64,000 bases of DNA, from NCBI RefSeq assembly GCF_003480915.1, contig NZ_QUKD01000012.1, positions 227-64,226 of the forward strand. Reading direction: 5' to 3'. How positions within the stretch are numbered: the stretch's first letter is position 1; the number at the start of each line of letters is the position of its first letter. A program made the translations under genes and the position numbers. This document shows, piece after piece, positions 12,944 through 63,600 of the stretch. This stretch comes from Parabacteroides sp. TM07-1AC. Its GTDB lineage: Bacteria > Bacteroidota > Bacteroidia > Bacteroidales > Tannerellaceae. The notes under the pieces were generated by a model. The model saw only the letters and a program-made list of their open reading frames with translations, made no database searches and had not been told where the DNA came from.

Positions 12944-14656
12944 TTATCTGTAAATCGAGAAATACTCCGCAATCGGTCCCAGCGTCAGTGCAGGGAAGAA
13001 AGACAAAGCGGCTACGATAAAGATCACACTGAATGTCATCACGGCAAATGTCGCCGTATCCGTCTTTAATGTCCCTGCACTTTCCGGTATATATTTCTTC
13101 TGAGCCAGCAGTCCTGCAATGGCAACCTGCCCCACGATCGGAAGATAACGGCTGATGATCAGAGCCAGACCGGTCGTAAAGTTCCAGAAGTAAGTATTAT
13201 CGCCCAGTCCTTCAAAACCGGAACCGTTATTCGCTGAAGACGACGTATATTCGTAAAGCATCTCACTGAAACCGTGGAACCCCGGATTGTTCAGCCAACC
13301 ACCTTCCGCCTCCACAAAAGCCGGGTTATATACCCAATAGTAGCAAGCCACCGCCGTACCGATTAATATCACGAACGGATGTGCCAGCGCCACGATCGTT
13401 GCTATCTTCATTTCACGCGCCTCTACTTTTTTACCCAGGAATTCCGGCGTACGCCCTACCATTAAACCGCTGATAAAGACGGCAATGATCAGGAATGCGT
13501 AATAATTCATGAATCCTACGCCCACGCCGCCGAACCAGGTATTGATCTGCATGTTCAGCATCTCCATCATTCCCGACAGAGGCATCGTGCTGTCGTGCAT
13601 ACCGTTCACCGACCCGTTGGAGGTCACCGTCGTCGTACAACTCCACAGTGCAGTGGCTGCCGCTCCGAGCCGCGTCTCTTTTCCTTCCATCGCTCCCGCG
13701 CGCTGGTCGATTCCCATCGCCGAGATCATCGGGTTTCCCTTCGTCTCATAGTGCGTATTGATCGCAACGCTCGCCAGATAGGCAAACAACATCACTCCGA
13801 AGATCGAATAAGCCAGTTTCTTCCGTTTCAGGTAGAATCCCAATGCAAAGACCATCGCCATCGGCAAGACAAGGATTGCCCAGCATTCGACCATATTGGT
13901 CAGGTATGTCGGATTTTCCAGCGGATGCGATGAATTGACTCCGAAGTAACCGCCTCCGTTCGTCCCCAACTGTTTGATCGGGATGATAGCGGCAGCCGGA
14001 CCCTGCGAAACCATTTGTTCGGTACCTTCCAGTGTCGTCAACTTCATCTTTCCGTCAAATCCCATCGGCGTACCTTCCACGATCAGGATACAGCCAACGA
14101 TCAGGGCAAGCGGTAACAGGATACGGGTACAGCTTTTCATCAACAGATTCCAGAAGTTACCGATCGTCTGTGTCGTTTTCGATGCCATCGCCTTGAAGAC
14201 ACCCGCCAGCGCCGCCATACCGGTTGCCGCTGTAATAAACTGGAACAGCATGATCACGAACAATTGTGTAAAATAGGTCAACCCGCTCTCGCCGCTGTAA
14301 TGCTGCAAGTTACAGTTCACCATAAAGCTGATGCAGGTGTTGAACGACAGATGCGACGACTGTCCTGCGTTACCGTCGGGGTTCAGCGGCAGATACTGCT
14401 GGAAATATAAGAGCAGGACTCCCCAAAAAAACCAAAAGAGATTGATTGTCAGAAGTGCTTTCAGGAAACTTTTCCAACTCATCTCCACATTCGGGTCGAT
14501 GCCGCACAGTCTGAAAATAAAACGTTCCACCGGAGCCATGAAGTCCAGCCAGGTCTTCTCTCCTTTATATACTTTTGCGATGTACATTCCCAGCGGATAC
14601 GCCAGGACGATCATCAATACTATTTGCGTGATGCTACCTACTAATTCCGTATTCAT
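12944..14656 (-). CDS. kdpA: Potassium-transporting ATPase subunit A
   Basis: KdpA of 570 residues, the potassium-selective channel-like subunit with about ten membrane helices. It belongs to the SKT superfamily; selectivity-loop segments are recognisable at FNTCISFMVNCNLQHY, LGTNGGGYFGVNSSHP and SSSANNGSGF. The spacing to kdpF upstream is 21 bp. The whole operon appears to be transcribed from the sigma-54 type site at 14923-14939. Confidence 0.98.
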   Translation of the reverse strand: MNTELVGSITQIVLMIVLAYPLGMYIAKVYKGEKTWLDFMAPVERFIFRLCGIDPNVEMSWKSFLKALLTINLFWFFWGVLLLYFQQYLPLNPDGNAGQSSHLSFNTCISFMVNCNLQHYSGESGLTYFTQLFVIMLFQFITAATGMAALAGVFKAMASKTTQTIGNFWNLLMKSCTRILLPLALIVGCILIVEGTPMGFDGKMKLTTLEGTEQMVSQGPAAAIIPIKQLGTNGGGYFGVNSSHPLENPTYLTNMVECWAILVLPMAMVFALGFYLKRKKLAYSIFGVMLFAYLASVAINTHYETKGNPMISAMGIDQRAGAMEGKETRLGAAATALWSCTTTVTSNGSVNGMHDSTMPLSGMMEMLNMQINTWFGGVGVGFMNYYAFLIIAVFISGLMVGRTPEFLGKKVEAREMKIATIVALAHPFVILIGTAVACYYWVYNPAFVEAEGGWLNNPGFHGFSEMLYEYTSSSANNGSGFEGLGDNTYFWNFTTGLALIISRYLPIVGQVAIAGLLAQKKYIPESAGTLKTDTATFAVMTFSVIFIVAALSFFPALTLGPIAEYFSIYR

Positions 14657-15256: not shown

Positions 15257-15467
15257 GTGACTAGAAAAAAGGATCGTTTTTTTTAGTCACTATTTTTTAC
15301 ATGTCGCAAAGTTAAAAAGAATTATTATAAAACAAATGAAAATCAAGTTTTTCTTACTATAAATCAGTAAAATATATCTTGATAATCAACGATACTACAA
15401 ATGTAAACCAATGTTAAATGAAAGGCATAAAAAATGACTAAAAAAAACGATCCTTTTTACTAGTCAT
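15257..15467. repeat. 211-bp segment bounded by 34-bp inverted repeats (candidate invertible element)
   Basis: The repeats at 15257-15290 and 15434-15467 are inverted copies agreeing at 31 of 34 positions. Each is also a near-palindrome with arms GTGACTA/TAGTCAC or ATGACTA/TAGTCAT. They enclose 143 A/T-rich bases holding minus-strand promoter boxes. No target-site duplication is evident. The rest of the 14877-15501 gap holds the sigma-54 site and A/T-rich DNA in which I see nothing else. Confidence 0.7.
15307..15336 (-). promoter_or_regulatory. Promoter inside the inverted-repeat segment
   Basis: On the minus strand TAACTTTG (15307-15314) is an exact -7 box and TTTG (15333-15336) lies 18 bp upstream. 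It now points left, away from the surface-protein genes. A second -7 match, TACATTTG, is at 15398-15405 on the same strand. Confidence 0.5.
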
Positions 15468-15501: not shown

Positions 15502-15888
15502 ATGACAATAAACGATGATCTAAATAAAGAAAATAAGCCATCAACCGTGATTACTTATACAAGCAAGGCAGTTAATTCTTCATCCATCTGCGTGAATTAT
15601 GCATTTCCTTCATCTTATGAATCGTTTACCCGGGTGAACAACCTGTGGAAGCCCTTCAATTTAACATTTACCCGGGTGAGATTAACATTTCCTGCGTATT
15701 TGAAATTGTCGACCCGGGTGAACGGAGCATTCAACGCCTCCAATTTAACGTTTACCCGGGTGAGATTAACATTTCCCGTGTATTTGAAACTATCAACCCG
15801 GGTGAACAGGTCATTTCAGGGCTTCCACGCACTGTTTACCGTGGTAAATAAAATATTCATCCCCGATTTTACAAAAACACTAGTATAA
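15502..15888 (+). CDS. Hypothetical protein with six 14-residue repeats
   Basis: A 128-codon frame whose second half consists of six units at exactly 42-bp (14-codon) intervals. Each starts FTRV or STRV (the last FTVV) and contains ACCCGGGT in the DNA (starts 15628, 15670, 15712, 15754, 15796, with ACCGTGGT at 15838). Two 84-bp super-units (from 15657 and 15741) differ by six bases in their first 63 bases, and five of these are synonymous in this frame, which favours coding. There is no signal peptide and no clear ribosome site. It ends 21 bp before the next gene. It could instead be a non-coding palindromic repeat array. I do not recognise the family. Confidence 0.45.
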   Translation: MTINDDLNKENKPSTVITYTSKAVNSSSICVNYAFPSSYESFTRVNNLWKPFNLTFTRVRLTFPAYLKLSTRVNGAFNASNLTFTRVRLTFPVYLKLSTRVNRSFQGFHALFTVVNKIFIPDFTKTLV

Positions 15889-15909: not shown

Positions 15910-16725
15910 ATGGCAAAGATTCAATCTGCACCTAAGTCAAAAATGTCAGTCAGCGAATTTTATTATTTCTGCCTGTTTATCGTCAATTACCTGTCAGCAG
16001 CCAATTTTGCGGTACTGAAGTTCAAAACAGCCTTCAATAATTTCAAGGAGAAGTTCGACGCATACAGCGACAGCATCAACAAAATAAGCAAGATGGATTA
16101 TGACAAGAAGTCTGCCGATATGAAAAAGAAATTGAACACTTCGCGTACAGGCTTTTTCAATGTGATCTCCGGCTTGTCGGTAAGTGCCGTTGCCGATGTC
16201 AAAGGAGCGGCAACCATCCTGCTCGATCTGATCGATAAAAAATATCGGAATATGAGCAAGTTGAAATATAAGGATCTGCAATTAATGACCCTTAACTTGC
16301 TCAACGATCTTGATTCGGACGAATACAAGACGTATATCGAAAAGCTGGAACTGACAAAGATCGTCACGGCTCTTCGTACATTATATAATGAATGCATCGA
16401 ACTGGAATCGAAGTTGATCAGTGCCGAAGGTACAAACAAGCGTATGCGTAAGTCGCTTGTTACCCGTCGTGAGTTGAATGTCGCCTACGAAAGGCTGACA
16501 GACCAGCTCAATGCCCTTGCCCAGGTGGAAGGCGATACCGAATATCTGGAACTTTTCACCTGGTGGAATGCTTTGATCGACGACTACCGTGTCAAGATCT
16601 CTGCCCGCTCGGGTTCCGGCACAGGCGGTAAGACGCAAACCGACGAATCTTCGCAAACAGATCCTAATAAAGGGGTCGATAATGGCGGCGGTAGTGGTGA
16701 CGATGATCGCCCGGTAATAGAATAA
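15910..16725 (+). CDS. DUF6261-like helical protein
   Basis: A 271-residue largely alpha-helical protein with no signal peptide. The segment from ELNVAYERLTDQLNAL to WWNALIDDYRVKISAR resembles the C-terminal part of DUF6261 proteins of Bacteroidales. The tail (about 230-271) is a low-complexity Gly/Ser/Asp/Thr-rich stretch ending RPVIE. Function is unknown. It lies 19 bp before the large surface protein, so the two are probably co-transcribed. Confidence 0.6.
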   Translation: MAKIQSAPKSKMSVSEFYYFCLFIVNYLSAANFAVLKFKTAFNNFKEKFDAYSDSINKISKMDYDKKSADMKKKLNTSRTGFFNVISGLSVSAVADVKGAATILLDLIDKKYRNMSKLKYKDLQLMTLNLLNDLDSDEYKTYIEKLELTKIVTALRTLYNECIELESKLISAEGTNKRMRKSLVTRRELNVAYERLTDQLNALAQVEGDTEYLELFTWWNALIDDYRVKISARSGSGTGGKTQTDESSQTDPNKGVDNGGGSGDDDRPVIE

Positions 16726-16744: not shown

Positions 16745-19700
16745 ATGAGGGAATTAATTATTTTATGTTTCACAATCTTGTTTCTCCCGCTGTCGATGGC
16801 GGCGGAAGGGACGGGGTTGAAGGTTGAAGGGGGAACACCCGGAACGGATTACAAGTATGAGGATAATACATACACTATTCTGACAGACACAGAATTAACA
16901 ATATCCGGAACGACTACAGCGGATCATATTGCTGTGGGGGAAAATGTGACAGCGAATATTATATTCAATGATTTGTCCATTAAGTTTGAAGATGGAAATA
17001 ATCCAATTAAAGGAACATGTGCCTTTTATATATATAAAAAAGCTCATGTCACAGTAACTATCACTAGTACTAATACTATTCAAAGTGGTGCACTTTTAGC
17101 TGGTATTCAGATAGAAAAAGACGCTTCCATAACAATTCAAGGGGATGGTACACTAAATGCACAAGGTGGTTGGGGAGGCGCTGGTATCGGTGCCGGAAAA
17201 GCAACTTCTTGTGGAACAATTAATATTAACAGTGGCACTGTAAATGCTTTTCCCGGAGGTTGGGCTTTTGGTTTAGGCGGAGGCTGCTTTTTAGAGATGG
17301 AGCCAACAACAGATGCTATTATTAATATAAATGGAGGAATTGTAAGTGCTGGTGGAAAAGAATGGGGTTCTTCTAGCATAAATGGTACAATAAATATAAA
17401 TGGAGGGGAGATTACTACTTCTTATCATGGAAGTAGTTTTTACAAATATAATTTCAATGGTCTACAGACTATAACAGGAGGAACATTTAATAATTATACT
17501 TTCAATAATGAAACCACAATTAAAGGTGGAACATTCACAAACTGTACCCTCAATAAGATTATATCTTTTGATGAGACTAACGCTTCTTTCTCAGATTGCA
17601 ATCTGACTTTTACAAATCCGGCAACATTAACAAAAGATTATTCAGGCTGTACTTTCAATGGAGAGATAACAATTAAAGGTGGAACATTCACAAACTGTAC
17701 CCTCAATAAGATTATATCTTTTGATGAGACTAACGCTTCTTTCTCAGATTGCAATATGACTTTTACAAATCCGGAAACATTAACAAAAGATTATTCGGGC
17801 TGTACTTTCAATGGGGAAATAACTATTAAAAGTGGGAAATTTACAAACTCTACTTTCACTGGAGAGATAACAGTTAAAAATGGAACATTTACTGACTGCA
17901 TCTTTGATGGAAAAGTCTTTTTATATAATGGCTCATCTACCGGTGATTCATCTGTAAAAGGTTCAGAATGTTATATATATGATGGAAATTGGATTTTTAA
18001 TAATAATGAGGCTGCCATTAATAGTTCAAAAGTCAATATTTATGGAGGTTCTATTAAAGCAAATGGAGTTTGGGGTGCCGGCATTGGAGGAAATAGTAGT
18101 AGTAATGGGAAAAATGTCACAATATATGGAGGATACATAACTGCAACTAGCGTGTATGGAGCCGGTATCGGTGGTGGAGATGGATATTCTGGCGGTGGTC
18201 AAGGAGGCACAACAATAATTTATGGAGGAACTGTTGTTGCTATTGTTAATTACTATGATGCAGCCAGAGGATTTGGTATTGGCTCCGGAAGAGCAAATCG
18301 TGGATCAGGCATTACTAAAATATATGGTGGTTCTATTAAAGGAACGATCGATGGTCAGCCAATAACAACTGGTGATCAACCTGTTTATTTAGGCAAGTTG
18401 GAAGTTCAAAATGTAACCGATGTTTCAGTAGATGGTAAACCTTATTATATTGATCGGAATATAGATGAGGATGATAATCTTTATTTATATATGACAGGAG
18501 ATAAGCATACTGTAACTGTGCGTACAAGTGGTAGTAATAATGTTACGACTTATAACGCGACTTATGCATCGCAAGGTGTAAATAATGACGGGACTAATAA
18601 AGGATATTTTACATTTGATAGTGGAACCTCATCAACACCCACTGAGAGCTCTTCTGTTGCTTTTAATTTCTCCAATTATGACATAATTTACGGTACAGAT
18701 AAGCTAACAGTAAAATTAACGGTGACAAATAAAGTAACAAGAACCCGTAGTGCCGCTATGAACAGTGTGCAATTGGCGTTAATAGATGAAGAGAATAATG
18801 TTTTATTGTCTGACTGGAAAGATGTTACTACAGATGGTGAATATGAATTTGAGTTTGATACAAAAAAACTCAATGCAGGTACTTATACATTAACTGCTCA
18901 GTATGGAGGAAGTAGTGAGAGTAATCCATCCAGTAAACAAGAAGTTCCATTGATTATTGCTCAGGCCGAAGGTACTAAAGCTCCCGAATATGAAGATCCT
19001 ACGCTAACGGCGATTTATAAAAATAAATTAAGCGATATTCAATTACCTACGGGATGGACGTGGGATGTACCAGAGGCAGAGGTAGGCAATGTCGGAGATA
19101 ATACATTTGCAGCAATCTTTACACCTAAGGATACAAGGAATTATAAGGTGGTTTCAAAAGATCTTACCGTAACTGTGAGTCCTTTACTTGTAAGCAAGTT
19201 GGATGACCCAAAAGTTATATCGTCCCAGCCGGTGACCTATGGCATAACGTTATCTAATATAGAAATTACTGATAAATGGAAGTGGGTAGATGGAAATACC
19301 ATACCGAGAGTTTCGTCTTGGAATTCATATCCGGCTTATTATGAAATAGAAGATGATACAAATTATGATTGGAGTAAAATAAGTGGCTATAATAAAGGTC
19401 AACATCGAGTAATAAGAGAGATTGAGCTAGATGTAAAACCAATATATTTAGAGGCTAAGGATTTTATATTCACTCCTCCGGAAAATCTGATTTATGATGA
19501 TCAAGGAAAAGAGGCGAAAGTAGAAGTAAAAGATAAAAGTATATCCTATAGCAATTTTTTTATTGAATATTATAATACTAATGGTGAATTAGTAAGAACA
19601 CCTAAAGAGCCGGGAACATATACTGTATCTATTACTTTTTTTATGTCTACTAATTATGTTTTGAAAGAAGATCCATTAACAGATCTCAGTTGGACATTTA

Positions 19701-20482
19701 CCATTAAAGAGCTACATAATATTACTATTACTTCTTCGATAGCAAATGGCAGAGTCACAGTAAATAAAGAAAAGGCAACCGAAGGTGAAACAATTATCTT
19801 AAAGGCTAATCCTGCTAGTGGATACGAACTCGAATCTTTATCTTATACTCAGTTGTCTGATGGAGCAACTATTTCCATCACTAATAAAACATTCATTATG
19901 CCTGAAAGCGATGTAACGGTAACGGCTACCTTTAAGAAAGCAACTGTTACCCCACCCGATCCTGTCGATCCTGATCCGCCTGTCGATCCCGATCCGTCGC
20001 CAGTGTATTACACTGTCACCCTTCCTGCTGTTGAAGGTGCAATGACCGATCCGGTAGCCGGTAGTTATGAGATTGAATCATGGGGTAACTTTGGTTTCTT
20101 CCTGATGATAGAAGAAGGTTATAAGGGAAGCTCCGTTCCTGTAGTGACAGCCGATGGCAAAGTGATAACGCCACGCATATCCGACGGTAAATATATCCTC
20201 AAAAATGTGCAAAGTGATATAGGTATTGAAATCTCCGGCATCGTTAAAGACCAGTCTACCGGTAATGTACCATTGCCTTCGGGCTTCGGTATCTTCATCG
20301 CAGACGGTATCCTCCGTGTGACAGCGCCGTATGTTATCCGCCTGTATCTGGCTGATACCAATGGTCGCCTCATCTTGACACGCCAGCTTCCGGCAGGCGA
20401 TACCCGCATCGAAGGTCTTGCCGCCGGTATCTATCTGCTGACATTAGAAGGACAACCGACCCGGAAGATTTTACTAAAATAA
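16745..20482 (+). CDS. Large repeat-rich surface protein with C-terminal sorting-like tail
   Basis: A 1245-residue protein with a signal peptide (cleavage near MAAEG, about residue 20). Residues 30-560 are Gly/Asn/Thr-rich short repeats (INGGE, IYGGS, IKGGTFT) expected to form a right-handed beta helix, including a 51-residue unit present twice. Later parts look like Ig-like or MBG domains (about 640-1000), then an InlB B-repeat-like domain with ITITSSIANGRVTVNKEKA (about 1000-1070) and a Pro/Asp linker (VDPDPPVDPDPS). The last 70 residues resemble a type IX secretion C-terminal domain, ending GIYLLTLEGQPTRKILLK. It is probably an exported adhesin. A/T-rich codon use in the middle differs from the GC-richer 3' end, suggesting a mosaic origin. 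Confidence 0.75.
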   Translation: MRELIILCFTILFLPLSMAAEGTGLKVEGGTPGTDYKYEDNTYTILTDTELTISGTTTADHIAVGENVTANIIFNDLSIKFEDGNNPIKGTCAFYIYKKAHVTVTITSTNTIQSGALLAGIQIEKDASITIQGDGTLNAQGGWGGAGIGAGKATSCGTININSGTVNAFPGGWAFGLGGGCFLEMEPTTDAIININGGIVSAGGKEWGSSSINGTININGGEITTSYHGSSFYKYNFNGLQTITGGTFNNYTFNNETTIKGGTFTNCTLNKIISFDETNASFSDCNLTFTNPATLTKDYSGCTFNGEITIKGGTFTNCTLNKIISFDETNASFSDCNMTFTNPETLTKDYSGCTFNGEITIKSGKFTNSTFTGEITVKNGTFTDCIFDGKVFLYNGSSTGDSSVKGSECYIYDGNWIFNNNEAAINSSKVNIYGGSIKANGVWGAGIGGNSSSNGKNVTIYGGYITATSVYGAGIGGGDGYSGGGQGGTTIIYGGTVVAIVNYYDAARGFGIGSGRANRGSGITKIYGGSIKGTIDGQPITTGDQPVYLGKLEVQNVTDVSVDGKPYYIDRNIDEDDNLYLYMTGDKHTVTVRTSGSNNVTTYNATYASQGVNNDGTNKGYFTFDSGTSSTPTESSSVAFNFSNYDIIYGTDKLTVKLTVTNKVTRTRSAAMNSVQLALIDEENNVLLSDWKDVTTDGEYEFEFDTKKLNAGTYTLTAQYGGSSESNPSSKQEVPLIIAQAEGTKAPEYEDPTLTAIYKNKLSDIQLPTGWTWDVPEAEVGNVGDNTFAAIFTPKDTRNYKVVSKDLTVTVSPLLVSKLDDPKVISSQPVTYGITLSNIEITDKWKWVDGNTIPRVSSWNSYPAYYEIEDDTNYDWSKISGYNKGQHRVIREIELDVKPIYLEAKDFIFTPPENLIYDDQGKEAKVEVKDKSISYSNFFIEYYNTNGELVRTPKEPGTYTVSITFFMSTNYVLKEDPLTDLSWTFTIKELHNITITSSIANGRVTVNKEKATEGETIILKANPASGYELESLSYTQLSDGATISITNKTFIMPESDVTVTATFKKATVTPPDPVDPDPPVDPDPSPVYYTVTLPAVEGAMTDPVAGSYEIESWGNFGFFLMIEEGYKGSSVPVVTADGKVITPRISDGKYILKNVQSDIGIEISGIVKDQSTGNVPLPSGFGIFIADGILRVTAPYVIRLYLADTNGRLILTRQLPAGDTRIEGLAAGIYLLTLEGQPTRKILLK
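17519..17824 (+). repeat. 153-bp direct repeat inside the surface protein gene
   Basis: Two nearly identical copies start at 17519 and 17672, a period of 153 bp (51 codons). The DNA is almost unchanged between copies, including third positions, so the duplication is recent or homogenised. The exact length keeps the frame, so unequal recombination would add or drop a beta-helix turn. Confidence 0.8.
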
Positions 20483-20579: not shown

Positions 20580-21113
20580 ATGAAAAATCAAATGTGTGTG
20601 TGTTGCCTGTTGCTGATGTTGTCTTTGGTATCGTGTACGAAGATGGAAGTTGGGTTTAAGGGGCAGGTTTATTTGTATCAGTCGGAACCGGAAGTAACCC
20701 GATATTCACTGGAAAAAAGAGATAGCATCGTTGTAAAAGGGTTTAATAACTGGGCTATGAGGGATGAACATAAAGGCATGCTGCCCGATAATGTCGTGAA
20801 AGATTCGGGATATGATAAATCTTACGTATATTATATATGTGCAGTCACCGCTAAGGTGGAAATGAAAGAGGATGATTTTATAACCAGTTCCGCAGATCCG
20901 GATACTAAACTCGGATATACGACTCAAGAGCTGGATCAGCACGGAGTTTCAAGCATCATAGGAGATGGCAGCAACGCGGGTGATTATTTGATTATGAATA
21001 CCTATCTGATCTATATTTCGCAGGAAAAGAATGGCAAAAAGATGGATGTCTGGTATCCGTGCTCCCCTGCTGATTTGGAATGGCATTGCATTGCCTTCAA
21101 AGGTATAAAATAA
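20580..21113 (+). CDS. Lipoprotein, paralogue 1
   Basis: A 177-residue protein with a lipoprotein signal (lipobox LVSC, Cys at about residue 19). No known domain is recognised. It shares with the next gene the motifs EVTR(Y/F), DSI.VKGF, SGYDKSY and a C-terminal D(V/I)WYP.SP..LEW. It follows the surface protein by 97 bp, and may be a cell-surface partner of it. Function unknown. Confidence 0.65.
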   Translation: MKNQMCVCCLLLMLSLVSCTKMEVGFKGQVYLYQSEPEVTRYSLEKRDSIVVKGFNNWAMRDEHKGMLPDNVVKDSGYDKSYVYYICAVTAKVEMKEDDFITSSADPDTKLGYTTQELDQHGVSSIIGDGSNAGDYLIMNTYLIYISQEKNGKKMDVWYPCSPADLEWHCIAFKGIK

Positions 21114-21153: not shown

Positions 21154-21666
21154 ATGAAGAATCTATCATTTATTTATAGTCTGTTGGTTGTATTTGCTTT
21201 GCTCTCCTGTTCAAAGACAAAGTTCACTTATGAGAAAAAAATCTATTTGTCTACTCCGGAGGTGACGCGGTTTACATTGGATGATCAGGATAGTATCGCT
21301 GTAAAAGGGTTCGACCGATGCGAAGCGTTAGAAGTCGTCAAAGGGAAATTGCCGGAAAATGTAGCGAAGGAATCGGGATATGATAAATCTTACTACTATT
21401 GCACTTATGAGGCTACGGTAGAAATGGAAGATGATATGGATAAATTAGTTTTTCCCAAGGAAAAGGTCGACGTGGGATATTCAACCATAGATTTTGAAGG
21501 CAGGGGATTCATGCAAGTATCAGATACGAAGGACGGACACAAATACGTGAAATTATATACCTATCTCGTCCATATCTTTAAAGATGAGAACGGAAAAGAG
21601 ACGGATATCTGGTATCCCCACTCTCCTTTCGAGCTGGAATGGACTTTCTTTTCGATCGATAAATAA
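21154..21666 (+). CDS. Lipoprotein, paralogue 2
   Basis: A 170-residue lipoprotein (lipobox ALLSC) that is a diverged tandem duplicate of the preceding gene. It shares the PEVTRFTLDD-DSIAVKGF region, SGYDKSYYY and DIWYPHSPFELEW. It is the last gene of the surface cluster and ends before a strong hairpin. Function unknown. Confidence 0.65.
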   Translation: MKNLSFIYSLLVVFALLSCSKTKFTYEKKIYLSTPEVTRFTLDDQDSIAVKGFDRCEALEVVKGKLPENVAKESGYDKSYYYCTYEATVEMEDDMDKLVFPKEKVDVGYSTIDFEGRGFMQVSDTKDGHKYVKLYTYLVHIFKDENGKETDIWYPHSPFELEWTFFSIDK

Positions 21667-21701
21667 AAGAACAAGTATCGGATGCAAACGGTACTGATAA
21701 T

Positions 21702-21751
21702 GCAGAGGGACGCAGACTATATTGATTATTAAAAAGTCTGCGTCCCTCTGC
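21702..21751. terminator. 17-bp perfect hairpin between convergent genes
   Basis: GCAGAGGGACGCAGACT (21702-21718) pairs exactly with 21735-21751 around a 16-nt A/T-rich loop. It separates the lipoprotein and OmpA-like genes, which converge. T-runs are weak, so termination is inferred. Confidence 0.6.
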
Positions 21752-21799
21752 GTATTCTGCACCGTCTGTGTCCGGTAAGATATCCTCTTACATTATATA

Positions 21800-40121: not shown

Positions 40122-40191
40122 AAGTGTTTCATTAGGATGAAACAAGTGTTTCACCTAGTAGAAACAACTGTTCCACTAGGGTGAAACACTT
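40122..40191. repeat. Array of three 18-bp palindromes at 22-bp period
   Basis: GTTTCATTAGGATGAAAC (40126-40143), a GTTTC/GAAAC unit (40148-40165) and a GTTCCAC/GGTGAAAC unit (40170-40187) follow at exact 22-bp steps. AAGTGTTTCA and its complement close the block. It sits 120 bp before the promoter of the next gene. Confidence 0.7.
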
Positions 40192-51873: not shown

Positions 51874-52389
51874 ATGAACAATTACAATCCTTTATTACAC
51901 CACCGTCATAGTATCCGGCTACAAGGATACGATTACTCCCAAGAAGGCCTGTATTTCGTAACGGTATGCACGCATAATATGCAATGCCTATTTGGCAACA
52001 TCACCAACGGTCAAATGATATTAAACCAATTTGGCCAAATCATCGAATCCGCCTGCCAACAAATCGAACAACAATCCCCCTACATCCGCTTCAACATCTA
52101 TTGCATCATGCCCAACCACTTCCACGCCATCATCGAAATCACCTCCCCCTGTACGGGCGGTTCGCGAACCGCCCTTTCCCGCCCCACCAAACCTCTCGGC
52201 CGCATCATCGGCGCATTCAAAACAATCACAACCAAAAACATTAATCTTATCAATAACACACCAGGCCAACGATTATGGCATCGCAATTATTATGAACATA
52301 TTATCCGCAATGATTACTCATATCAGAATATATATAATTATATATTGGAGAATCCGGAGAGGTGGGATAGGGATAAATATAGGAGATGA
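51874..52389 (+). CDS. REP-associated tyrosine transposase (RAYT)
   Basis: A 171-residue Y1 transposase of the IS200/TnpA-REP type. The HUH metal motif is MPNHFHAIIEI and the catalytic Tyr is in NYYEHIIRNDYSY. RAYTs are single-copy domesticated relatives of IS200 that process REP palindromes. A 20-bp palindrome GGGCGGTTCGCGAACCGCCC (52155-52174) is inside this gene in a variable loop (residues about 94-100), and a 28-bp copy lies 64 bp downstream. It appears intact. Confidence 0.9.
   Translation: MNNYNPLLHHRHSIRLQGYDYSQEGLYFVTVCTHNMQCLFGNITNGQMILNQFGQIIESACQQIEQQSPYIRFNIYCIMPNHFHAIIEITSPCTGGSRTALSRPTKPLGRIIGAFKTITTKNINLINNTPGQRLWHRNYYEHIIRNDYSYQNIYNYILENPERWDRDKYRR
52155..52174. repeat. REP-like palindrome inside the RAYT gene
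   Basis: GGGCGGTTCGCGAACCGCCC is a perfect 20-bp palindrome encoding GGSRTA in frame. The same 20 bp recur at 52457-52476. Confidence 0.85.
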
Positions 52390-52452
52390 AAGGGGGGATG
52401 GGGGCTATGATGGGGATAGAGGCGATGATGGGGATGGGGGGATGGGGCGACG

Positions 52453-52480
52453 GTAGGGGCGGTTCGCGAACCGCCCCTAC
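52453..52480. repeat. REP palindrome with GTAG ends downstream of the RAYT gene
   Basis: A perfect 28-bp palindrome starts GTAGGGGCGG and ends CCGCCCCTAC, around CGCG. The GTAG tetranucleotide at the base is the feature RAYT enzymes recognise in known REP elements. G-rich imperfect repeats lie at 52385-52450 and two 17-18-bp copies of ATTCAAATAAGCCCCCC at 52493-52527. Confidence 0.8.
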
Positions 52481-52538
52481 AGGGCCTGCCCTATTCAAAT
52501 AAGCCCCCCCATTCAAATAAGCCCCCCTTATAGCATAT

Positions 52539-57692: not shown

Positions 57693-58373
57693 ATGGAATA
57701 TCATAATAAAGAATATTGTTTAGAAGTTGAAGGTAAGCTTGCCTGTTTTACCCGCCCTGAAATGAAGATCGAGCGAGTCAGTTATGATGTTATTACACCT
57801 TCTGCTGCACGTGCTATCTTTGAAGCCATATTCTGGAAACCTGCCATTCGATGGAATATAACACGGATAGAAGTTTTGAAACCAATAAAATGGATTTCTT
57901 TTAAAAGAAATGAAGTAGGGAGTTTGATGAGTCCACGTGCTTCCGACTTATTCATAGAAGACAACCGACAACAAAAGTCCAGTTTGTTATTGAAAGATGT
58001 TCACTATAGGATATATGCAGAGCTAGAATTTATTCCACCAAGAAAAAGGAATGCAGAAGAAAAAGACAAAAACACATCAGTGCAAGCCGATGAAAACCCA
58101 GGTAAGTATAACGCCATGTTTGAACGCCGAGCTAAAAAAGGACAATGCTTCAATCAACCCTATTTAGGCTGTAGAGAATTTTCCGCTAACTTCACATATA
58201 TAGATAATCCGATAAAAGGGAATGGTATACAGGAAGATCGCGATTTAGGATATATGTTATATGATATGGATTTCACAAATGAAAAGAATCCCAAACCAAT
58301 GTTCTTTCGTGCTATTTTGAAACAAGGAGTTTTAGAGGTTCCTGCAATAAACAGTGAGGAGGTACGCCGATGA
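57693..58373 (+). CDS. cas5c: CRISPR-associated protein Cas5c (Cas5d)
   Basis: A 226-residue Cas5 of the I-C type, which replaces Cas6 and cleaves pre-crRNA at the repeat stem. The RAMP-like N-terminus reads CLEVEGKLACFTRPEMK and the family segment SARAIFEAIFWKPAIRW follows. It overlaps cas8c by 4 bp and begins the effector operon. Confidence 0.95.
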   Translation: MEYHNKEYCLEVEGKLACFTRPEMKIERVSYDVITPSAARAIFEAIFWKPAIRWNITRIEVLKPIKWISFKRNEVGSLMSPRASDLFIEDNRQQKSSLLLKDVHYRIYAELEFIPPRKRNAEEKDKNTSVQADENPGKYNAMFERRAKKGQCFNQPYLGCREFSANFTYIDNPIKGNGIQEDRDLGYMLYDMDFTNEKNPKPMFFRAILKQGVLEVPAINSEEVRR

Positions 58374-60124
58374 TTTTACAAGCATTATATGATTATTATC
58401 AACGTAAAGCGGCTGATCCGGATAGTACTATTGCCCCTAGAGGGCTGGAATGGAAAGAAATCCCCTATCTTATCCTGATTGATAAAGATGGAACATTTGT
58501 GGAATTACAGGATACAACAGAAGGTTCAGCAAAACAAAAACGCGCTAAGAAATATTTAGTCGTTAAGAGCAAAGGACGTTCAGGTAGCGGTAGTTGGCAA
58601 ACCGTAAATATTCTATGGGATCATTTCGGTTACGTTTTGGCACAACCCAAAAACACCGATGAAAAAGGAATGCCTAAAGCATTAGAGGATGCCCGCAAAC
58701 AAAATAAATCGTTTGTACAGGAAGTGAAACGGATAGCAACACTTTTCCCTTCTAATGAAGAGATTCAGGCTGTATCCCGATTTTATGATATGGCAGAAAA
58801 TATCGAACGGATAAAAGCAGATCCTTTATGGGAAGAATGTATAAAGAAAGACGGAACAAATTTATCTTTCAAAGTGATCGGTAATACGTCTATTGTTGCA
58901 GCAAATCCGGATATAACATCTTTAATAGAATGCAGTTCGGAGGAAAATGAAGAAGAGGGGATATGTCTTATTACCGGAAAAAAAGCACCGATTGCTTTAT
59001 TAAATAGTGCTATTGCTATACCCGGAGGAAAAAGCGGAGCCAAATTGGTCGGTTTCCAAAAGAAATCAGGGTATGATTCTTATTACAAAGAACAGGGAAT
59101 GAATGCCCCTATTTCAAAAGAAGCAGAAGATGCCTATACAACAGCACTTAATACGCTTTTAGGAAAAGACTCTTCCAATAAATACCGACTACATGATACA
59201 TCCGTTGTTTTCTGGTCACAAAAACCAACTAAACTGGAACAAAGTTTTGCTTTCCTTGTATCGGCTCCACCCAAAGATAATCCGGATAAGAATATAGAAG
59301 TTATTAAAAGCTTTTTATCTTCTTTGGAATCCGGGGTATTGGATGAAAAAGATAAAACTCCTTTTTATATTTTGGGACTATCCCCTAATGCAGCTCGTAT
59401 CTCCGTGCGATTTTGGCGTCAGGGGACAGTAGGGGAATTTTCAAGTTATTTCAGACAACATTTTGAAGACCTGGACATAGTAAGAAATAAAAGCAAAAAG
59501 GAATATTACTCTCTCTTTAACTTGCTTACTCAGATTTCTTTTCAGAATAAAATGGAAAACCTTCCACCCAATCTGGCAAGTGATTTGACCCAAAGTATTC
59601 TGGATAACGGACCTTATCCTGCAACACTGCAAATGCAATGTCTCACTCGGATAAAGGCCGACCGGAATATAACATCCATAAGGGCTGCTATTCTCAAAGC
59701 ATATTTAAATCGAAAATATAGAAATCGTACTAATAAACCTAAAGATATTATCATGGGATTAGATTTAACAAATACAAATCAGGCATACTTATGTGGCCGC
59801 TTGTTTGCTATCCTCGAAAAAATTCAGAGTGATGCAATCCCCGGAGCTAATTCAACCATAAAGGAACGCTATTACGGTGCAGCTTCGACAACACCGGCAA
59901 CCGTCTTTGGACGTTTACTCTCCTTATCCAGACATCATCTGGCAAAATTAGATACAGGCAAATGTGTCTATTACGAGAAGTTACTACAAGGGGTAATTTC
60001 TGATTTGGATAGTAACGGCTTACCGAAATATCTGTCGATAGACGATCAATCCCGCTTTGCGATAGGCTATTATCATCAGAGAGAAGAGTTATATACAAAA
60101 AAGGAAACAACAGATAAAGAATAA
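58370..60124 (+). CDS. cas8c: CRISPR-associated protein Cas8c (Csd1)
   Basis: A 584-residue Cas8c, the large subunit of the I-C Cascade that recognises the PAM. Family segments include [16 protein letters not shown] near the N-terminus and [15 protein letters not shown] near residue 345. In I-C loci an internal start within this gene often also makes Cas11c; I cannot confirm such a start by eye here. Confidence 0.95.
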
Positions 60125-60144
60125 AAATAATAATTCTATACAAT

Positions 60145-61008
60145 ATGGAAACAGCAATAAAAAACCGTTATGATTTCGTCTATTTATTTGATGTACAAGA
60201 TGGTAATCCCAACGGAGACCCTGACGCAGGTAACTTACCCAGAGTAGACTCCGAAACCGGTGAAGGTCTGGTATCAGATGTTTGTTTGAAGCGAAAAGTC
60301 AGAAACTTCATTCAGATAGTAAAAGACTGTGAAAAACCTTATGATATTTTCATTAAGGAAAAAGCTATTTTGAATAACCAGATAGCAGAAGCTCATAAGC
60401 AGGAAGATGTAAAAGCGAAAGAAAAAGGAGATAAGACAGAGGCAGCCCGTCAATGGATGTGCCGGAATTTCTATGATATCAGGACATTCGGTGCAGTATT
60501 GAGTACCGGAGAGAATGCAGGACAGGTTCGCGGTCCAATCCAATTTACTTTTGCTCGTTCTATTGATCCTATTGTGACAGCAGAGCATAGTATTACCCGC
60601 ATGGCAGTAGCGACTGAAGACGAGGCTAAAAAACAAAGCGGTGACAACCGTACCATGGGACGAAAATATACAGTACCCTATGGATTATATAAAGCTAACG
60701 GATTCATCTCTGCACATTTGGCGACCCAGACCGGATTTAATGAAGATGATCTGAATTTATTCTGGGAGTCATTAAAGAATATGTTCGATCATGATCATTC
60801 GGCTGCAAGAGGTATGATGAATGCCCGTAAATTGATCGTATTCAAACATAGTTCAGCACTAGGAAATGCTTCTGCTCATACGTTGTTTAATCTGATTGAT
60901 GTAAAGTTGAAAAATGAAGCGGTTCCTCCCCGCTCGTTCAATGATTATGTAGTGACTATCGATAAGGATAAACTTCCCGAAGGAGTAGAACTTTTAGATA
61001 TGATATGA
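60145..61008 (+). CDS. cas7c: CRISPR-associated protein Cas7c (Csd2)
   Basis: A 287-residue backbone subunit of the I-C Cascade. The N-terminal [19 protein letters not shown] is the hallmark of the Cas7/Csd2 family. Multiple copies coat the crRNA. It overlaps cas4 by 4 bp. Confidence 0.97.
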
Positions 61009-61673
61009 TAGAATACGGAGATGAGGATCTGTTGATGCTTTCCGGTATTCAACATATTACATTTTGCGAGCGTCAATGGGCACTTATACATATAGAACAA
61101 CAGTGGGCTGAAAACAAGCTCACTGTTGAAGGTAACTGGATGCATCAAAAGGTAGATGATCCCCTGTTAATGAACCGCAATAAAGAGGTCGTAACATTAA
61201 GATCCGTAACTCTTGTTTCCAGAAGACTGGGACTTTATGGAATATCTGACGTTGTAGAAATGGTTGCGTCATCTTCCGAAGAAAACGCAATACGGCATCC
61301 TAAATATCCGGGATTATGGCGATTAATTCCGGTAGAATATAAACGGGGAAAACCAAAGAAAGATCAGATTGACGAAGTCCAGCTATGTGCTCAAGCCATC
61401 TGCCTGGAAGAAATGTATGACATTTGTATTGAAAAAGGCTTTTTATATTATGGTGAAACCCGCCATCGGGAAGAGGTTCTGCTAACAAAAGAGTTACGGA
61501 CTTTAGTTGAAGAAAAGTGCACGAGAATGCATCAGTTATATGAACAGAAACTTCTTCCGCCTGCTATATACAAAGCACACTGCAAGTCTTGTTCCCTGAA
61601 TGATGTATGCATGCCTAAAGTGCTGACCAAAACACCAAAAGTGAATTCTTACCTTACCCAATTATACGAATAG
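61005..61673 (+). CDS. cas4: CRISPR-associated exonuclease Cas4
   Basis: A 222-residue Cas4 (RecB-like nuclease with an Fe-S cluster). The N-terminal Cys is in ITFCERQW and the C-terminal cluster is [11 protein letters not shown]. The nuclease core has VEYKRGKPK. With Cas1-Cas2 it trims prespacers and sets PAM orientation. Confidence 0.95.
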
Positions 61674-61676
61674 AGT

Positions 61677-62711
61677 ATGAGAAAATTGTTGAATACGTTG
61701 TATGTAACAACTCCGGAAGCCTATCTTACCAAAGATGGGGAAAACGTTGTAATCAGAGTAAAAGAGAAGGATATTTTCCGTATTCCGGTATTGAATATAG
61801 AAGGTATCGTTTCGTTTGGATATATGGGAGCATCTCCGGCTTTGATGAAGATGTGCGCCGAGAGAAACGTAGGATTATGTTTCTTAAGTGCTAACGGGCA
61901 ATTTCAGGGACGGCTTTCGGGACCGGTAAAAGGGAATGTGCTTTTAAGAAGAACGCAGTACAGAATAGCAGATGATGCAAACAAATCGTTGGAGATCAGT
62001 CGTATCTGTATAGCCGGGAAGATAGCGAACTCAAGAGCTGTAATAGAGCGATTCAAGAGGGATCATATATCTTCTGATGAACAACTTTCTGTATTTCTAT
62101 CAGCTTCTGAAAAATTGAAAAGATCGAAAAATCAAGCATTAACAGCAGATTCATCCGATAGCCTCAGAGGAATAGAAGGAGAAGCAGCAACAACCTATTT
62201 CTCTGTCTTTAGTCAGATGATTATTGCTCAGCATGAAGATTTTCCTTTTAGCGGAAGAAACCGGAGACCGCCAAAAGATAAAGTAAATGCATTGTTATCG
62301 TTTGTGTATACATTATTAAATCATGAGATCCAATCTGCATTAGAGTCTGTTGGACTTGATCCGTATGTTGGTTTTCTGCATACAGATCGTCCGGGTAGGG
62401 CTGGGTTAGCGTTAGATATGATGGAGGAGCTGCGAGCTTATATGGCAGACAGGTTGGTTTTGTCATTGATTAATCGCAAACAAATTTCAGGCAAAGGTTT
62501 TATCGAACATGGAGATAATGGAATTGTTATGAATGATGATGTCAGGAAAGAGGTTTTATCTGCCTGGCAAAAAAGAAAGAAGGAAACTATTATTCATCCA
62601 TATTTGAATGAATCTGTTCCCATAGGACTGATTCCATATATCCAGGCAATGTTATTAGCCCGATTCCTGAGAAATGATTTAGATAATTATCCTGTCTTTT
62701 TAATAAAATAG
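61677..62711 (+). CDS. cas1: CRISPR-associated endonuclease Cas1 (type I-C)
   Basis: A Cas1 of 344 residues, the integrase of spacer acquisition. The sequence has the beta-stranded N-terminal domain and the helical catalytic domain with GIEGEAAT (Glu), YVGFLHTDRPGRAGLALDMM (His) and a later Asp/Glu, the usual metal-binding set. It starts 3 bp after cas4. Confidence 0.97.
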   Translation: MRKLLNTLYVTTPEAYLTKDGENVVIRVKEKDIFRIPVLNIEGIVSFGYMGASPALMKMCAERNVGLCFLSANGQFQGRLSGPVKGNVLLRRTQYRIADDANKSLEISRICIAGKIANSRAVIERFKRDHISSDEQLSVFLSASEKLKRSKNQALTADSSDSLRGIEGEAATTYFSVFSQMIIAQHEDFPFSGRNRRPPKDKVNALLSFVYTLLNHEIQSALESVGLDPYVGFLHTDRPGRAGLALDMMEELRAYMADRLVLSLINRKQISGKGFIEHGDNGIVMNDDVRKEVLSAWQKRKKETIIHPYLNESVPIGLIPYIQAMLLARFLRNDLDNYPVFLIK

Positions 62712-63006: not shown

Positions 63007-63178
63007 GTCTCTGCGAACCTGAAGTGGTAACGGATATACAAGGATGTTCGCTATTTCTGATTTTCAGCATATTATATGCTTTACCTTTCGTTCCACCATA
63101 AAGAAATAAGACAGTAAATAAAGTTTCGCATAACAGCATATCTAATATGCTGTAAATGTTTGTGTTATTTATTATGGA
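63007..63178 (+). promoter_or_regulatory. Probable leader of CRISPR array 2
   Basis: Between cas2 and the first repeat are two related palindromes: AGCATATTATATGCT near 63065-63080, and ACAGCATAT-CTA-ATATGCTGT at 63133-63153 with perfect 9-bp arms. They may be integration-host-type or leader-binding sites; no gene is seen. Confidence 0.5.
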
Positions 63179-63600
63179 GTCGTACCTTATGTAGGTACGT
63201 GGATTGAAACTCGTAAAGCGATCAATGCCTTGCGACGCTGATGGTCGTACCTTATGTAGGTACGTGGATTGAAACGATCGTGAACAGATGATCCGGGTCG
63301 TGGCGGGAAGTCGTACCTTATGTAGGTACGTGGATTGAAACTGGGCATCAGAGTTTGCACACTTACTCGGCAGTAAGTCGTACCTTATGTAGGTACGTGG
63401 ATTGAAACCTATCACAGCAAAAAGATTAAAAAAGCGGCTTAGGTCGTACCTTATGTAGGTACGTGGGTTGAAACAATGTAAATACTTAAGTCTTTTTTAT
63501 CACTCATGAGTCGTATCTTTTACGGGTACATGGATTGAAACTACAATAGGGAAGAGAGAGTATCGCTTTTATGTCGTAACTTATATAGGTACGACTTAAT
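63179..63600 (+). CRISPR. CRISPR array 2 (type I-C; seven repeats)
   Basis: Repeats are 32 bp, beginning GTCGTACCTTATGTAGGTAC and ending GTGGATTGAAAC. Copies start at 63179, 63244, 63310, 63377, 63443 (one change), 63510 and 63573. The sixth (63510-63541) is of the array-1 type, and the seventh is truncated and decayed. Spacers are 31-35 bp. The stem CGTACCT/AGGTACG differs from array 1 by paired changes. Confidence 0.97.

Follow-up and report, generated by a model that had tools for sequence, protein, structure and literature searches.

Mpi-controlled invertible promoters of Bacteroides fragilis were reportedly described by Coyne in 2003, and Fletcher is said to have described, in 2007, a phase-variable family of surface glycoproteins in Parabacteroides distasonis whose invertible promoters are reportedly OFF in most copies. 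The latter family belongs to the same genus as the locus analyzed here and likewise concerns surface proteins, whereas an operon led by a DUF6261 protein is another target. According to the available portions of PMC4747536 and PMC5903667, invertible promoters of B. fragilis are controlled by Mpi, which inverts 13 regions (PMC4747536). In Bacteroides intestinalis, the accessible part of PMC12118408 reports capsule invertible promoters on segments of 183–186 bp with the repeat GTTCGTTTAA, given there as a 10-bp repeat. Excerpts of PMC10773633, PMC10939037 and PMC9409006 were drawn on as well.

The window, a 64,000-nucleotide stretch of a contig from Parabacteroides sp. TM07-1AC, contains at 15257–15467 a segment that, together with its relatives, resembles the B. 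fragilis Mpi system as far as the excerpts describe it: scattered promoters between inverted repeats, one master serine recombinase, and capsule and surface genes as targets. An Mpi equivalog is present in relatives. Apparent differences lie in the 32-bp site with TGACTA ends, found in 9 of the 38 genus genomes, and in the DUF6261 operon as target. The B. intestinalis repeat GTTCGTTTAA, in the form given in the accessible text, is close to the AAACGWWCGTTT core of many Parabacteroides sites, but it measures 10 bp as opposed to a 32-bp palindrome. Judging from sequence comparison, we consider it highly probable that the window segment belongs to the site-specific invertible promoters of Mpi (serine invertase) type and stands in its OFF orientation. 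This kind of switch is known; the target, a DUF6261 surface operon, is new, and the unexpected element is the repeat array that accompanies DUF6261.

The original prediction described two 34-bp inverted arms around a promoter that points away from the neighboring operon, and all of these elements were reproduced when rechecked or recomputed on the sequence. The arms (15257–15290 and 15434–15467) are identical at 31 of 34 positions, each is near-palindromic, and the interior between them (15291–15433) measures 143 bp and matches the interiors at loci L084 and L083. From the window repeats and the family signature, the left arm is read as a recombination site, the near-palindrome TGACTA-7-GGATCG-7-TAGTCA with a predicted crossover at 15273–15274 (AT), and the right arm as its inverted copy with a predicted crossover at 15450–15451 (AT). 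A motif scan placed in this short, repeat-flanked segment a single outward Bacteroidales −33/−7 promoter with an exact match, on the minus strand (15336 to 15307, TTTG-N18-TAACTTTG). It is directed away from the operon and thus now OFF; after inversion it would occupy 15388–15417 and point rightward, with its −7 box at 15410–15417, 85 bp ahead of position 15502.

The site motif TGACTANNAAAANNGATCNNTTTTNNTAGTCA matched twice in the 64 kb, both times at the arms, and in none of 100 shuffles. The window contains seven inverted repeats of at least 22 nt with both arms inside 600 bp, and a gap of more than 20 bp separates the arms in only two of them: the segment itself (38 nt, 92%, 133 bp) and a pair at 52147/52484. 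The latter (33 nt, 91%, 272 bp apart) is located at a REP-associated tyrosine transposase-like gene (51874–52484), which reached 63.9 bits, below the cut-off of 80. Since Markov resampling of the interior also produced such a promoter near one end in 199 of 5000 trials, the case for the window rests on comparison with relatives. Both arms carry the identical, uncommon core GGATCG, and the −33/−7 boxes and site palindromes are intact. The crossover center, AT, is the same in both arms; as it is palindromic, it shows no polarity for this particular pair.

The 32-bp site recurs within the genus. When one genome of each of 84,980 species was scanned with the exact site pattern (center fixed as GATC), 13 stretches were obtained, all from Parabacteroides and limited, among named species, to Parabacteroides faecis, P. 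goldsteinii and P. gordonii. The looser pattern (free 8-bp center, one mismatch) underlies the count of 9 of 38 genus genomes given above, of which two (P. goldsteinii and P. gordonii) carry 26 sites apiece and a third carries 19, while the control, the reversed non-complemented pattern, matched in 0 of the 38. The kdpA gene of the window is closest to those of two genomes (85% DNA identity). The window and the fetched loci together yielded 76 site pairs, representing ten sources, once those with a summed site score below 42 had been left out of the count; the outer length of the 76 ranged from 172 to 218 bp (median 205). The two central bases were given no weight in the site score. Twelve site loci had been picked with the GATC-centered pattern, so their AT centers are selected; the pairs with a non-palindromic center all stem from loci obtained by other searches.

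Within pairs, the central 2 bp were identical in inverted orientation in 75 of 76 cases, and shuffling right sites within genomes gave a mean of 37.0 agreements and a maximum of 50 (2000 trials). The centers vary by pair (AT, TT/AA, TA or GT/AC). Among the 42 pairs with non-palindromic centers, 41 agreed in the inverted orientation and one in the direct. Serine recombinases use a 2-bp crossover, and the central dinucleotide, as read from these alignments, behaves as a within-pair rule that fits such an overlap. In 67 of 76 pairs, one end and not the other bears an outward −33/−7 promoter, compared with 1.3 expected and a maximum of 4 in 100 resamplings; the tally is 67 for promoters wholly between the sites and 68 if an overlap of up to 3 bp with them is allowed.

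As regards the enzyme, PF00239 was matched in 35 of the 38 genomes of the genus. One subfamily of these recombinases corresponds to the NCBIfam equivalog "master DNA invertase Mpi" (NF009949, cut-off 272): its members in three genomes were tested and scored 323.4, 317.1 and 322.0 bits, while the other recombinases tested reached at most 186 bits. Across the order, a match above the cut-off is present in 9 of the 119 genomes sampled. No serine-recombinase relative was found within the 64-kb window. Among 15 genomes whose mpi-like genes were located by an N-terminal motif, 11 have a single site-like palindrome 57–60 bp ahead of the mpi start (e.g., at L164, L168 and L172). In three of them (G001, G002 and G038) it is close to the consensus, scoring 22 of 26 points, and lies 58 bp ahead of the ATG, and in eight a weaker palindrome (15 to 17.5 points) at 57–60 bp; at this distance it is absent in G012, G021, G026 and G036. 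This placement suggests that Mpi may regulate its own gene. The dinucleotide rule and the palindrome before mpi offer sharp tests of the enzyme and of its possible autoregulation. One genome with the Mpi equivalog, G004, contained no site of the TGACTA-ended motif in the looser-pattern scan.

Genes of several kinds follow the site pairs. S-layer-like genes (of the MNKKFSTLVA kind) lie downstream of 37 of the 76 pairs by text match, and the two such proteins tested both end in DUF6383. Other downstream genes, one tested of each, comprised capsule genes (Polysacc_synt_2; Glycos_transf_4), a TonB-receptor and a sigma factor; two HU-like proteins were also among those tested. Automatic state calls gave 48 OFF pairs, including the window, and four ON; a further 14 are flanked by candidate genes to the left and right, and 10 were left undecided. 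The ON members L126 and L216 are convincing; the remaining two calls rest on dubious ORFs and are doubtful.

The original prediction had proposed relatives as a place to look for both orientations. Flank-matched locus pairs between genomes numbered 59, and interiors matched in 52 of these, with 48 in the same orientation and four inverted; three of the four are based on matches of 22–23 bp. In the fourth, L096 against L124, the interior is inverted relative to the flanks over 91 bp (26.3 inverted, 6.7 direct, shuffle maximum 18.4), and no exact promoter was recognized in either interior. Inversion has very likely occurred in this family, which also has ON members. For the window locus itself a single orientation is known, and the two closest homologous loci, L083 and L084, have their interiors oriented alike relative to the genes; most family members sit in a single orientation in the genomes examined.

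This distribution bears on the view that the window copy is an inert relic whose promoter segment has lost the ability to invert and is fixed as found. The like orientation of the window, L083 and L084, the strong excess of OFF calls, which would also fit inert relics, and the 48 of 52 locus pairs in agreement speak for it; nevertheless, we deem it very improbable given the shared GGATCG core, the intact boxes and palindromes, and a family that has ON members and an inverted homologous locus. Somewhat less remote, though still unlikely, is that an invertible promoter of the same kind is flipped by another recombinase, either a paralogue of Mpi or a Tsr-type tyrosine recombinase. Relatives do carry Mpi-like paralogues at about 180–186 bits, below the 272-bit cut-off, and, in the available text of PMC4747536 and PMC3090145, tyrosine recombinases invert other Bacteroides promoters. 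A 2-bp center that varies between pairs yet is identical within them fits the serine 2-bp overlap, and the site-like palindrome stands before the Mpi equivalog, while 13 other resolvase loci scanned for one yielded a single loose match.

The original prediction also allowed that the palindromic repeats are MITE ends or paired terminators, and this we regard as hardly credible. Each arm is indeed a near-perfect, hairpin-capable palindrome and the motif recurs across genomes, but neither structure calls for a central dinucleotide that varies between pairs to match in inverted orientation within them, or for a single outward promoter in each pair, and no terminator-like site fell at the arms in a consensus scan. 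Likewise, the 211-bp unit was not encountered at unrelated loci: of the other 75 pairs, only those at the homologous DUF6261 loci L083 and L084 match the interior over its full length, and the remaining interiors share stretches of at most 69 bp with the window, mostly 17–41 bp.

The Mpi-type invertible promoter in front of a surface-protein operon, as originally proposed, is thus the reading that comparison with relatives supports. A recombinase of the Mpi family encoded elsewhere in the genome would bind both palindromic sites, cut at the central AT dinucleotides and flip about 177 bp, turning the promoter from leftward, into the 600-bp gap before kdp, to rightward. A transcript starting there would cross the right site and the array of 42-bp repeats, enter the DUF6261 gene, and continue over the genes for the large surface protein and the two lipoproteins as far as a hairpin at 21676–21777. 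We infer that Mpi is present in the genome of the window, that the window copy inverts and that the operon follows the switch. Mpi-type switching in Parabacteroides would thereby extend to a surface operon led by an uncharacterized protein.

The operon is on the plus strand, and none of its three stretches scanned contained an exact −33/−7 promoter on that strand. Its DUF6261 protein (15910–16725) is a member of PF19775 at 64.8 bits (cut-off 27), a family with no assigned function; of 5.39 million papers, a single one, on Streptococcus oralis, contains the term. Structure prediction gives helices throughout, at a mean pLDDT of 81.7, and a disordered tail that closes with DDRPVIE. RPVIE or a near variant ends the tail in 26 aligned close relatives, and many distant members end otherwise. 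Of the 119 genomes sampled across the order, 14 encode DUF6261, as do 26 of the 38 in the genus. There follow a large predicted secreted surface protein (16745–20482), with an InlB-type B repeat above cut-off and Ig-like, beta-helix and sorting-tail matches all below it, and, read from the sequence, two predicted lipoproteins, one at 20580–21113 without a Pfam match and one at 21154–21666 with homologues beside DUF6261 operons in L082 and L088. Inverted-repeat search and folding placed a long terminator-like hairpin (43-nt arms, −61.3 kcal/mol) after the last operon gene.

The gene order of invertible promoter, leader, DUF6261 and large surface protein (43–44% identical) is common to the window, L083 and L084, and G038 (L088) has a 51% homologue of this protein further along the same cluster. 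The interior aligns with that of P. gordonii L084 at 75% over 179 bp and with that of P. goldsteinii L083 at 70% over 177 bp. The left neighbors differ, and the loci therefore represent homologous clusters and not one chromosomal place. Counting the window, a site pair lies upstream in 7 of 59 DUF6261 loci with enough upstream DNA, among the matches listed.

Between promoter and operon, the original prediction had placed a repeat ORF (15502–15888, plus strand). Array comparison does not bear this out: the stretch looks non-coding and is probably a leader, holding an array of ACCCGGGTGA units at 42-bp spacing (15622–15850, five clear copies and a degenerate sixth in the repeat scan). Other DUF6261 leaders contain arrays of different sequence with near-equal spacing. 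The DUF6261 loci analyzed were the best matches among those listed, and an array was called strong at a cut-off score of 70. On this basis, 47 of 61 DUF6261-like ORFs have a strong periodic array within 600 bp upstream, all of 40–43 bp (e.g., L029, L036, L039 and L045), and 1 of 58 has one downstream; upstream of other ORFs in loci without DUF6261 the figure was 3 of 603. The arrays of the window (63 of 126) and of L016 and L017 (58 each) fall under the cut. Among the DUF6261 loci behind invertible promoters, four of seven pass it, and 42 is the best lag in all seven.

The mean period, 41.6 bp, corresponds to 3.96 helical turns. Among the matches listed, 50 array-bearing upstream stretches showed similarity at E < 1e-5 in 10 of 1225 pairs. 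Dyad symmetry reached p < 0.05 in 13 of 32 loci, a test covering higher-scoring arrays only and based on mononucleotide shuffles of the consensus units. Some DUF6261 loci have a −7 box after the array and ahead of the start codon, and others have a full promoter preceding the array, a placement that favors a role of the array at the DNA level. In the literature searched, we found no description of such an upstream array.

Such arrays are not exclusive to DUF6261: intergenic tandem arrays occur at other loci too. The fetched loci held 70 others, 25 with a 22-bp period and six with 41–43 bp; of these six, four are at DUF6261 loci missed by the span test (L047, L251 and, twice, L273) and two elsewhere (L090 and L125). 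The L090 case (13371–13474), from a relative, is a palindromic array of 41 bp that separates kdpB from the gene after it, and is one of the few located away from DUF6261.

We put forward, as a proposal whose merits we find evenly balanced, that DUF6261 and its upstream array constitute an undescribed cis-acting module in which the spacing (about four helical turns, 40–43 bp) is kept and the sequence mostly is not, with DUF6261 possibly binding its own array and some Parabacteroides modules standing under Mpi-type invertible promoters as part of a phase-variable surface operon. Within this module, a protein–DNA array conserved in unit spacing rather than in sequence is likely, and DUF6261 is possibly the protein bound to it. 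Where such modules are placed under Mpi-type invertible promoters, the array–protein system would be phase variable together with the surface operon. If functional, the DUF6261 arrays would be repeat arrays of a novel type, specific to each locus and constant in period.

Further periodic arrays were observed elsewhere in the window. A dyad array of 21-bp period (CGACACTGTCG) at 2673–2750 lies between Crp-like and Hcp-like genes, named by eye, and a similar one is present at L080 (807–885). A palindromic array of 22-bp period, the commonest period among the other intergenic arrays, occupies 40122–40188. Finally, Type I-C CRISPR-Cas genes were matched at 57693–62711 (Cas5c, Cas8c, Cas7 and Cas1c), and are followed by an array of 67-bp period at 63178–63408.
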